From Chthonomonas sp. (GTDB lineage: Bacteria > Armatimonadota > Fimbriimonadia > Fimbriimonadales > Fimbriimonadaceae): a stretch of 64,000 nucleotides of DNA. Location: contig JAEURR010000009.1 in NCBI GenBank assembly GCA_016788115.1, positions 62,001-126,000 of the forward strand, given 5' to 3'. Position 1 is the first letter of the stretch. The number at the start of each line of letters is the position of its first letter. Under the pieces are notes generated by a model. The model made no database searches. It saw only the letters and a list, made by a program, of their open reading frames with translations, and was not told the DNA's origin. Made by a program: the position numbers and the translations under genes. Shown here one piece after another: positions 33,208 to 35,454 of this stretch.

Positions 33208-34158
33208 TCAGTCGTCGGTTGTCGCGCTGCCTACCGGTGAGGGCAGGGCGAGGTTCGGGAGAACCTCTTCCAGAAACTCGGCCAGCGATTGGGCCATGAA
33301 GTGCGGGTTCAGTTCGCGGAACAGATCTGGATTCTCGTTCACCGCCCGTCCGCCGAGACCGATCAGGAACCGCTTCTGGATGTCCGAAGCGCGAAGCTTT
33401 TGAATGAGGTCTTGGCAGTGCGGGAAGCCATCAATCCTGGCGCAGGAGATCATGATCACATCGGGTTTGTGTTCACGGCTTGCGCTGATGAAAGACTCGG
33501 CCGGCACGTTAGCTCCCAAGTAGATGGTTCGCCACCCGTGCATGCGCAGCATGTCGCTGAGCATTCGGATTCCGATTGCGTGCTGGTTTTCTGGGACACA
33601 ACCCAGGACGGCCACACGCGCACCATCGCGAAGCGGGCTGGCGAACTGCATCAGCTGGGTCATCATCCGCTCGGTGATCGCGCTGGCAAGGTGCTCCTCG
33701 GCAACATCGACGGCCTGAACTTCATACCATCGCCCGACGTGTTGCATGCTTGTGGCCAGAACCTCGCTGTAGATACGGCTGAGGTCAACCCCCTGGCGAT
33801 TCAGGCGGTGGATGAGAGCGGAACAGCGCTCTTCGTTGCCGTGGACTGCGAGCTTGGCAAACTCAACCGCGACCTCGTGCAGCGGAAACGGCTCTTCGGC
33901 GAGCTCTGCTTCGCGGCTGAGGAGAATCTGGAGCGAATTGGCGATGTCGCCGCTGGCGAGTGAGTAATAAACCTGGCGACCGAGCTTGGTCGCGCGGACG
34001 AACCCCTTGGCTCGCATTTTTGCCAGGTGATTGCTGATATTTGGCTGTTTAAGCCCCGTCGTCGAAACGAGCTCCGAGACATTGCGGGGGCCGTTGTGCA
34101 ACTCCGCGAGCAGCACGCGCTTGGAAGGTTCGGCAATCTCTCGAATAAGGTCTTTCAC
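33208..34158 (-). CDS. ArsR-type HTH regulator with cobalamin-binding domain
   Basis: A 316-residue transcription regulator. Residues 1-75 are an ArsR-type winged helix (PSKRVLLAELHNGPRNVSEL, LKQPNISNHLAKMRAKGFV, GRQVYYSL). Residues about 90-190 are a four-helix B12-binding cap with WYEVQAVDVAEEHLAS, and 190-300 a Rossmann B12-binding domain with the histidine motif NQHAIG and GLGGRAV. CarH/LitR light sensors have this B12 part but a MerR-type head. The cap motif here is W-x10-EH, one residue longer than W-x9-EH. The start is GTG 34158. A perfect palindrome lies just upstream at 34179-34196, and an acyl-CoA dehydrogenase gene is divergent. Light or B12 sensing is likely but untested. Confidence 0.85.
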   Translation of the reverse strand: MKDLIREIAEPSKRVLLAELHNGPRNVSELVSTTGLKQPNISNHLAKMRAKGFVRATKLGRQVYYSLASGDIANSLQILLSREAELAEEPFPLHEVAVEFAKLAVHGNEERCSALIHRLNRQGVDLSRIYSEVLATSMQHVGRWYEVQAVDVAEEHLASAITERMMTQLMQFASPLRDGARVAVLGCVPENQHAIGIRMLSDMLRMHGWRTIYLGANVPAESFISASREHKPDVIMISCARIDGFPHCQDLIQKLRASDIQKRFLIGLGGRAVNENPDLFRELNPHFMAQSLAEFLEEVLPNLALPSPVGSATTDD

Positions 34159-34178
34159 TCGATGCAGTCCTCAGGATG

Positions 34179-34196
34179 TATCACTCGACAGTGATA
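34179..34196. promoter_or_regulatory. Perfect palindrome, candidate operator of the B12-ArsR regulator
   Basis: TATCACT, CGAC, AGTGATA: a 7-bp perfect inverted repeat with a 4-bp centre. It lies 21 bp upstream of the regulator start and inside the region shared with the divergent acyl-CoA dehydrogenase gene. A half site GTGATA recurs at about 34222. Confidence 0.6.
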
Positions 34197-34335
34197 ACAG
34201 CATCTACGGGAGAGTATACGGTGATATTTCAGACTTCCCGCAAGAATATTCATATTCGTGCGTACCGGTGTTCAGCCGCGGGCATGTGAGCCAGGTAGTA
34301 CAATAGCGGAGATTCACTAGGAGAACTATCGAACG

Positions 34336-35454
34336 ATGCTGTTTGAACTTTGCCCAGAAGAGGCCTCATTTATTGGTCGGGTCCGAAACTTTGTTGCCGA
34401 AGAGGTCTTGCCCGTCACGCGCGAATGGGAAAAGAATGCAGGCTTTGACCCGGCCATTTGGAATCGACTGGGCGCGCTCGGTCTTCTGAGCATGACGCTG
34501 GAGAAAGAGAAAGGCGGCATGGGGCTCTCGTGCGCCGCTTACGTGGAAGCGTGCCGGGAACTCGCCAAAGGCGACCCCGCGCTGTCGATGAATATCGCCG
34601 CGATCAATGCCCTTTGCGTCGGCCACATCGCGACCTTCGGGACAAAGGAGCAGCAAGACAAGTATTTGCCCGGGATCGTCAAGGGCGACATCAAGCTCGC
34701 GTGGGGATTGACCGAGCCCGACGCAGGCAGTGATGCCCGGCGAGTTCGGACGGTCGCGAATCCGATCGCCGATCGGCCTGGCTTCTACCACTTGAACGGT
34801 CAGAAGATGTTCATCACGAACGGTGGCAACGCCAATCTGATCGTCATGGTCGCGCGCACCAGCGAGACTGAACTTTCGGCCTTCCTCATGGAGACCGATC
34901 AACCAGGCTTCACGCTCGAAGAACGGATCCACACGGTTGGCGTCAGCGCTTCGAACACTGTACGTTTTTCGCTCAAGGACGCCGTCGCATGGCACACGCC
35001 CTGTTCGTTCGAGCAGGCGATTTCGCTGCTTTATCGTGGTCGTTTGGGCATCGCCGCCATGGCTGTGGGGATCGCCGAGAAGGCTCAGGAACTGGCGATC
35101 GAATACTCCAAGCAGCGCGAGCAGTTCAACCGACGGCTTTGCGATATGCAGAGCGTGCAGAACATGCTGGCGGACGGCGAAGTGGACCTTGAGGCCGCAC
35201 GTCTGCTTCTTCACAAGGGCGCGATGATGTTTGATCGTGGTGAGAACGTCGTGAAGATCTCCTCGATCGCCAAGCTCTTCGCGAGCGAAGCGGCGAATCG
35301 CATCACCAACCGCGCAATCCAAATTCACGGTGGCCGAGGCATGACGCAGATGTTTCTGGTCGAGAAGCTGTGGCGAGATGCCAAGCTCACCGAGATCGGT
35401 GAAGGGTGCAGCGAAATCCAGCGTCTGGTCATCAGCAAGACCGTCTTGAAGTAG
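34336..35454 (+). CDS. Acyl-CoA dehydrogenase
   Basis: A 372-residue FAD enzyme. It has the helical N-terminal domain, the beta-domain with AWGLTEPDAGSDARRVRT (FAD/acyl-CoA site), the C-terminal helical domain with NRRLCDMQSVQNML, and the FAD-binding end QIHGGRGM, EGCSEIQRLVISK. It makes a 2,3-trans-enoyl-CoA from an acyl-CoA and passes electrons to ETF. Chain-length specificity is not readable. CTAGGAG about 16 nt before the ATG may be its ribosome binding site. The gene is divergent from the B12-ArsR regulator and may be its target. Confidence 0.93.
   Translation: MLFELCPEEASFIGRVRNFVAEEVLPVTREWEKNAGFDPAIWNRLGALGLLSMTLEKEKGGMGLSCAAYVEACRELAKGDPALSMNIAAINALCVGHIATFGTKEQQDKYLPGIVKGDIKLAWGLTEPDAGSDARRVRTVANPIADRPGFYHLNGQKMFITNGGNANLIVMVARTSETELSAFLMETDQPGFTLEERIHTVGVSASNTVRFSLKDAVAWHTPCSFEQAISLLYRGRLGIAAMAVGIAEKAQELAIEYSKQREQFNRRLCDMQSVQNMLADGEVDLEAARLLLHKGAMMFDRGENVVKISSIAKLFASEAANRITNRAIQIHGGRGMTQMFLVEKLWRDAKLTEIGEGCSEIQRLVISKTVLK

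Follow-up and report, generated by a model that had tools for sequence, protein, structure and literature searches.

What does a CarH-like B12-binding module do when it is carried by a DNA-binding head of another family, and which genes would such a protein control? This question is raised by a gene of Chthonomonas sp. (Fimbriimonadaceae) located in the window, the whole 64,000-nucleotide stretch of DNA that was analysed. A preliminary description of the locus had pointed to a regulator of this composition, to a palindrome before its gene and to a divergent acyl-CoA dehydrogenase gene, and had suggested B12- or light-controlled fatty acid use.

An ArsR-type head and a B12-binding module in one protein

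The regulator gene (33208-34158, minus strand; GTG start in the ORF listing) encodes 316 amino acids arranged into a helix-turn-helix (HTH, about residues 1-88), a helical cap (about 93-170) and a Rossmann B12 domain (about 180-304). Pfam matches above the curated cut-offs were obtained for HTH_5 (13-55, 4.3e-9), B12-binding_2, which represents the helical cap (99-169, 7.3e-10), and B12-binding, which represents the Rossmann domain (183-286, 4.3e-20). MarR_2 also passed its cut-off marginally (28.7 vs 27 bits), and no MerR match was found by Pfam at E 0.01. The NCBIfam model for ArsR-type HTHs gave 61 bits against a cut-off of 55 and the CarH model 41 bits against a cut-off of 400, with the B12 part alone matched. 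An AlphaFold model (mean pLDDT 92; 28 aligned sequences as input) agrees with Pfam and NCBIfam on a winged helix-turn-helix of the ArsR type, and neither the model nor Pfam contains an additional domain in the 316 residues that could represent the bilin-binding globin-like domain. Among solved structures, photocobilins come closest (Z 25.7, with 1.9 A for 208 residues), followed by the light-receptor domain of CtMerR (Z 24.4), with lower values for a corrinoid protein (21.8), MetH (21.6), AerR (20.7), AppA (19.7) and CarH (19.2). CtMerR and the photocobilins are likewise at the top of a Foldseek search, and the closest match in sequence is 8jbs (5e-32 with the family profile), which belongs to the CtMerR/photocobilin set of 8jbs, 8j2w and 8j2y. 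Domain matches and structural neighbours thus confirm that an ArsR-type head and a CarH-like B12 module are united in one protein. Metal- or thiol-sensing cysteines in the HTH are frequent, though not universal, in the ArsR/SmtB family. The regulator has cysteines only at positions 112, 187, 239 and 248 and none in its HTH, and therefore no usual metal site is predicted.

Cap motif and cobalamin-contact residues

The preliminary description had read the cap as W-x10-EH, one residue longer than in CarH. This was a mis-registration, as the alignments to photocobilins, CtMerR and 37 other fusions are free of gaps in this region. They place Tyr145 at the position of the CarH tryptophan, nine residues before E155-H156, with Trp144 adjoining, and the GxxW of known light-sensing domains aligns with G142-R143-W144-Y145. 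By alignment, the cap has the usual spacing and differs by a change from Trp to Tyr, so that the intact Wx9EH of CarH/LitR is represented in the window by Tyr145-x9-EH. Among the window protein and the 37 named fusions, the canonical position is occupied by Tyr in 26 of 38, Trp in 11 and Ala in one, and it is Trp in all 18 aligned cobalamin domains outside the fusions.

The residues expected to contact cobalamin are strongly conserved. E155, H156, the cobalt-ligand histidine H193, G196 and P219, the proline of GxxxP, are retained in 37/38 fusions; the conservation of EH in the named fusions is partly built in, because one of the two peptide patterns used to collect them contained EH. The same five residues, together with G269 and G270, are invariant in the alignment of 28 relatives, which were collected without any cap pattern. 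The arrangement N191-x-H193-x2-G196-x41-S238 followed by GG269-270 fits the spacing of the B12 motif. Compared to E/DxHx2Gx41SxT/V...GG, the window protein reads NxHx2Gx41SxA, with the His, Gly, spacing and GG retained and the E/D and T/V altered; the E/D is replaced by Asn in 28/38 fusions, including the window, and by Ser in 8/38. Residue 190 is Gly in 26/38 fusions and Glu in the window. The signature of light-responsive cobalamin domains given by SignatureFinder consists of GxxW, EH, GxxH and GxxxP (PMC11796333, excerpt), of which the window protein presents GxxY, EH, ExxH and GxxxP, i.e. two of the four elements exactly rather than the full set. A stand-alone cobalamin domain from Chloroflexaceae (L100:4941-5636) was observed to contain GxxW, EH, GxxH and GxxxP and fits the published light-receptor signature. 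In Thermus CarH, His132 following Trp131 is described as required for dissociation (PMC10442372, excerpt), and its position is Glu146 in the window protein; CtMerR and the photocobilins also lack this histidine (PMC11796333, excerpt).

Two relatives deviate at the B12 site. The fusion L098 has lost EH and carries Cys in place of the ligand His, and the distant relative L060 has Asn at the latter position. L098 may be a B12-independent derivative, for which CarA offers a comparison: CarA is B12-independent, retains EH and loses the Trp (PMC9304148, excerpt), whereas L098 loses the EH that CarA keeps. These deviations, and the AerR (Z 20.7) and AppA (Z 19.7) domains among the structural neighbours, would suit a regulator that acts independently of B12 or with another ligand, either through CarA-like decay or as a heme or redox sensor like AppA and AerR. 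Such a regulator is improbable in view of the ligand His, EH and GxxxP proline shared by 37/38 fusions, the window included, their invariance in the 28-sequence alignment and the position of B12 light receptors as the closest matches. A cobalamin-dependent regulator is the preferred reading: the protein is likely to bind B12, and adenosylcobalamin and light are a plausible signal by analogy with these receptors.

Distribution of the fusion

A search of 101 relative genomes identified fusion-length matches in the genome under study and 30 others. Of the fusion-bearing genomes, 28 (this genome included) belong to the family and three (G090, G094 and G095) lie further out; in G024, a regulator fragment is present at a contig end. 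A separate collection scan identified both domains in 37 of the 80 relatives retained out of 313; it used two peptide patterns, so divergent fusions are possible beyond this set. Among these 80 relatives, other phyla presented single domains only. The 37 carriers are labelled Armatimonadetes, Fimbriimonadaceae, Fimbriimonas, Chthonomonas, Chthonomonadaceae or Chthonomonadales in 30 cases, 'bacterium' in five and other groups in two. These last two are metagenome-assembled genomes (MAGs) labelled Methanoregulaceae (L090) and Actinomycetota (L097); both labels are probably wrong, as the contigs tie to G013:C8 (same family) and G094:C272 (same phylum). A tree of 56 cobalamin domains unites 37 of the 38 fusions in a single group (SH-aLRT 99), and L097 stands apart from the other fusions on a long branch. 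The search for other ArsR-B12 fusions and their neighbours, which the preliminary description had proposed as a check, thus yielded further fusions, and the acyl-CoA dehydrogenase recurs as their immediate divergent neighbour at 20 of 31 regulator loci.

The predicted operator beside the regulator gene

The predicted operator, TATCACTGTCGAGTGATA as read on the minus strand, lies at 34179-34196, corresponding to positions -38 to -21 from the regulator start codon. The perfect palindrome TATCACT-CGAC-AGTGATA described earlier is present at this site and is the sole copy with fewer than two mismatches in the 2.4-Mb genome. An inverted repeat alone is cheap by chance, because perfect repeats with 7-base arms and gaps of 0-8 are present in 40 of the 222 control upstreams, as well as in 3 of 28 regulator upstreams; the controls lie before ORFs of the same loci that were listed mechanically with a minimum of 200 amino acids, some of which are perhaps not genes. 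It is the sequence of the palindrome together with its 8-base spacing that lifts it above chance. The exact palindrome sequence is unique to the window, and the motif itself is conserved.

De novo motif analysis of the 28 regulator upstreams, at 110 bp each, retrieved the palindromic motif nATCAntntananTGATn with a log-likelihood of 60.9, compared to 34.1 +/- 3.7 (maximum 41.5, n=20) for dinucleotide shuffles and 39.3 +/- 3.5 (maximum 44.9, n=20) for GC-matched upstream sets. The set of 28 omits L044 and L056, which nearly duplicate L038 and L055, as well as L059, the distant L060 and L062, which has no HTH, and it retains L061, whose regulator is truncated by a contig end. When upstreams of orthologous neighbour genes were compared with the regulator upstreams of the same loci, the respective scores were 95.3 and 39.8 for C2, 40.7 and 33.6 for C3, 44.9 and 32.0 for C5, and 30.9 and 38.2 for C4; the three neighbour sets that score higher probably do so because conserved coding sequence is included. 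Since neighbour-gene upstreams can score as high or higher, independent evidence for the operator was sought. A matrix was built from 17 sites upstream of an extracytoplasmic function (ECF) sigma factor gene in other genomes, with zero regulator sites used. This matrix assigns 20.7 bits to the window palindrome, which ranks first of 28; the best control reaches 11.3 bits (0/222 at the window's score). Five of the 28 regulator upstreams score above all 222 controls and six more are matched by only 2/222, and 16/28 have values below 6.3 bits. Among 14 further regulator loci, three reach at least 14 bits and eleven stay below 12 bits. In sequence terms the operator is therefore real, supported by the de novo motif, the ECF-trained matrix and the shuffles, but many regulator genes carry a degenerate or different form of it. 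An inverted-repeat operator at the own promoter is a trait of ArsR/SmtB regulators, and from its sequence the regulator gene is predicted to have one.

Between the operator and the dehydrogenase gene, a putative -10 element of the regulator gene, TATACT, is located at 34213-34218 (minus strand). A second box, TGAAATATCA (34222-34231, minus strand), differs by one mismatch from TGATATATCA, which is found within two mismatches in 11/28 regulator upstreams and 2/222 controls. As a genome-wide regulon word, TGATATATCA was rejected, as TGAWATATCA occurs only once more in the genome, over the start of an unassigned ORF.

An ECF sigma factor gene as probable second target

The pattern ATCA-N8-TGATA is found at four places in the genome, the window included, which is not above a reversed-pattern control; the site at the ECF sigma gene is distinguished by conservation alone and not by genome count. 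This gene (G000:C7:333207-333797; loci L213 and L216) encodes a protein with Pfam Sigma70_r2 and r4_2 domains and has the operator about 39 bases upstream. A second operator-like site of 16 bits was noted farther upstream. ECF orthologues were defined as the best match per genome with at least 56% identity, which gave 27 genomes (the weaker L243-L245 were omitted; G005 and G034 nearly duplicate each other; G024, with only the regulator start on its contig, was counted as regulator-bearing). TATCA-N8-TGATA with up to two mismatches precedes the ECF gene in 18 of the 19 genomes with the regulator and in none of the eight without it; when the genome under study is excluded, the figures are 17/18 and 0/8 (Fisher 5.8e-6). 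The exception is G002, a member of the window's genus, which has the regulator and no ECF site within two mismatches. Perfect sites (7/19) occur at a spacing of 8 only, among spacings of 4-12, and shuffling of the ECF upstreams (n=17, 200 runs) left on average 1.70 and at most 6 of them with a site, compared to 16 observed. With the looser ATCA-N8-TGAT, searched from -170 to +40, one-mismatch matches appear in 2/8 regulator-less genomes, at -126 (G023) and +11 (G029). Two supported independent pairs in an rpoB tree bear on the tie between operator and regulator; both agree, and they are too few for significance. In about 759 kb of collected sequence, 22 rows reach at least 13 bits, of which 5 lie at regulators and 12 at the ECF gene; the others are L213 (which duplicates an ECF row), L048, L058 (second site), L211 and L212, and L211-L213 had been collected by pattern.

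The ECF sigma gene, located elsewhere in the genome, is the clearest candidate for a second target. Because the shared operator is found before both genes and is tied to the presence of the regulator, the regulator most likely represses its own gene and the ECF gene; the location of the sites near both starts suggests repression. An alternative is that another regulator binds the palindrome and the ArsR-B12 gene merely co-occurs, as might be argued from the few phylogenetically independent contrasts behind the correlation and from the many regulator upstreams in which a strong site is missing. It is the least probable of the explanations considered, given that the operator sequence also precedes the regulator's own gene, that the ECF-gene operator is missing where the regulator is missing (0/8) and that 4-N8-4 inverted repeats suit ArsR proteins, as in ATTC-N8-GAAT of SqrR (PMC9774250, excerpt).

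No anti-sigma gene was recognised beside the ECF gene, where the two neighbours given to Pfam had no match; the small gene on its divergent side, represented by that of relative L247, has no Pfam match. Two further operator-like sites were noted. At L212:1500-1517, a site of 13.5 bits is flanked by a different ECF sigma gene and by a gene for a protoglobin-type chemoreceptor. At L058:8031-8048, the 11-8-11 inverted repeat GTGATATATCA-N8-TGATATATCAC precedes a fasciclin-domain gene directly after the regulator gene; the RpoE regulon of Rhodobacter sphaeroides, which singlet oxygen induces, includes a fasciclin gene (PMC7074977, excerpt).

Acyl-CoA dehydrogenase and the supply of B12

Across from the palindrome, the divergent acyl-CoA dehydrogenase gene (34336-35454, plus strand, 372 amino acids) was found by ORF listing and Pfam as previously described. 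The neighbouring dehydrogenases of other loci are 60-82% identical to it, three of them truncated by contig ends, and in L036 an additional ORF separates regulator and dehydrogenase. A putative -10 element of the dehydrogenase gene, TACAAT, is located at 34299-34304 (plus strand), and AGTAGAAT occurs with at most one mismatch in 16/22 regulator-dehydrogenase spacers (34290-34310 in the window); this word probably represents the -10. Some 100 bp separate this element from the palindrome, and the operator is on the regulator's side. The conserved pairing suggests that the regulator may also control the dehydrogenase, and the earlier suggestion of B12- or light-controlled fatty acid use has weak support. 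Twelve loci contain a fadB-type cluster, which in nine cases is situated about 2-2.7 kb downstream and in some is followed by ETF genes; one fadB and two ETF proteins from this group were examined with Pfam. In the genome under study, fadB, ETF-alpha and a MetH-like gene are on a different contig. Direct control of fadB was discarded, as the upstreams of 12 members of the fadB cluster (one a fragment, L049) and of the genome's own fadB and ETF-alpha showed no TGATATATCA-like site in a reading by eye, without motif count.

These neighbours also raise the possibility that the regulator senses B12 supply: it would respond to the level of adenosylcobalamin and keep acyl-CoA oxidation in step with what methylmalonyl-CoA mutase, an adenosylcobalamin-dependent enzyme, can process. 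Besides the divergent dehydrogenase and the nearby fadB/ETF genes of some relatives, this would accord with the three Pfam B12-binding proteins of the genome, namely the regulator, a MetH-like protein and methylmalonyl-CoA mutase, and with its corrinoid adenosyltransferase, whose presence is non-discriminating because it is found in 88/101 genomes, this one included. The mutase is also found in 12/28 family genomes with the regulator and in 5/32 without it (Fisher 0.024). On the other side, 16 of the 28 regulator-bearing genomes have no mutase match, so coupling to this enzyme is not required, and the ECF sigma target is unexplained by such logic. Supply sensing is thus an unlikely explanation, albeit the strongest of the alternatives.

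Light as candidate signal

Within the family, photolyase is present in 27/28 genomes with the regulator and in 17/32 without it (Fisher 1.2e-4), in 26/27 and 14/23 when only genomes at least 90% complete are counted, and in 16/17 and 8/14 by genus (p 0.028, G024 excluded). Outside the family it occurs in 27/40 genomes, nearly all without the fusion. In the rpoB tree, which covers 48/50 genomes (G014 and G031 are absent), photolyase and regulator can be compared in three supported independent pairs, of which on average 2.0 agree, 0.0 oppose and 1.0 show no difference. Being common outside the family and with too few tree contrasts, photolyase co-occurrence was rejected as proof of light and taken as a hint only. 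As a direct target, photolyase was also rejected: when 601 bases around its start were scanned in each of 20 regulator-bearing genomes, the best matrix score was 3.6 bits. The resemblance to light receptors, the photolyase co-occurrence and the one fasciclin gene hint at light without proof.

Proposed mechanism

The favoured reading, to which a probability of roughly 0.55 is given, is that of an ArsR-type cobalamin-binding repressor acting on TATCA-N8-TGATA, in which loss of the adenosyl group would free the regulator's own gene and the ECF sigma gene. The repressor would be a homodimer whose C-terminal domain holds cobalamin, most likely adenosylcobalamin, in the base-off form, with His193 below the cobalt and Glu155, His156 and Tyr145 above the adenosyl group. 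In this state it would occupy the sites next to its own start codon and before the ECF sigma gene. Upon loss of the adenosyl group, for which light would be the likeliest cause, both genes would be released and the freed sigma factor would amplify the response. The domain make-up, the conserved ligand and cap residues and the shared operator with its tie to regulator presence are computational observations, whereas the B12 species, repression over activation, the dimer, the light signal and control of the dehydrogenase are inferred. More tentatively, and at somewhat less than even odds, the fusions may represent lineage-specific B12 light-receptor repressors (mostly with Armatimonadota labels) in which the head changed from MerR to ArsR, the operator from direct to inverted repeat and the cap Trp to Tyr, with a regulon of light or photo-oxidative ECF sigma factor and acyl-CoA oxidation.

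Relation to known systems and implications

The regulator shares with CarH/LitR an N-terminal DNA-binding domain, a helical cap and a Rossmann B12 domain, with the cap EH and ligand His retained, and differs in its ArsR-type instead of MerR-type head and in the cap, where most members have Tyr for Trp. The DNA sites bound by CarH are direct repeats of 11 bp (PMC8156234, excerpt), whereas the predicted operator of the regulator is an inverted repeat with an 8-base spacer. The cobalamin domains of CtMerR and the photocobilins are closest in sequence and fold, yet the regulator has neither the MerR head nor the bilin domain and carries the cap Tyr. With SqrR, BigR and YgaV of the ArsR/SmtB family it shares the ArsR HTH and a 4-N8-4 inverted-repeat site near its own promoter (ATTC-N8-GAAT for SqrR/YgaV; PMC9774250, excerpt), but its HTH is without cysteines and sensing would have moved to the fused B12 domain. 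Because it has neither a MerR head nor an intact Wx9EH, the regulator is judged from its sequence not to be a member of CarH; it would represent a kind of B12 photoreceptor-regulator with an ArsR head. In Streptomyces coelicolor, light-induced carotenogenesis reportedly proceeds via an ECF sigma factor with a linked B12-type light regulator, a system said to differ from that of the window in regulator class and operator. Among the open-access papers, in the portions available, no ArsR-headed B12 or CarH-like photoreceptor fusion was found, and the titles and abstract starts on CarH, LitR and photocobilins are silent on this class; the SignatureFinder paper reports HTH fusions, and 'ArsR' is absent from its main text. 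The open-access papers also yielded no light-control circuit for Fimbriimonadaceae-type bacteria.

A B12 module of the light-sensing type on a second DNA-binding family, with a predicted operator and a sigma factor target, is directly testable. If it is light-responsive, the regulator would offer a green-light switch in which an ArsR protein acts on inverted repeats, and it would provide Fimbriimonadaceae-type bacteria with a circuit for light control. It would then also be a natural case in which to test how the cap Trp/Tyr and the CarH His132 shape the photochemistry of B12.
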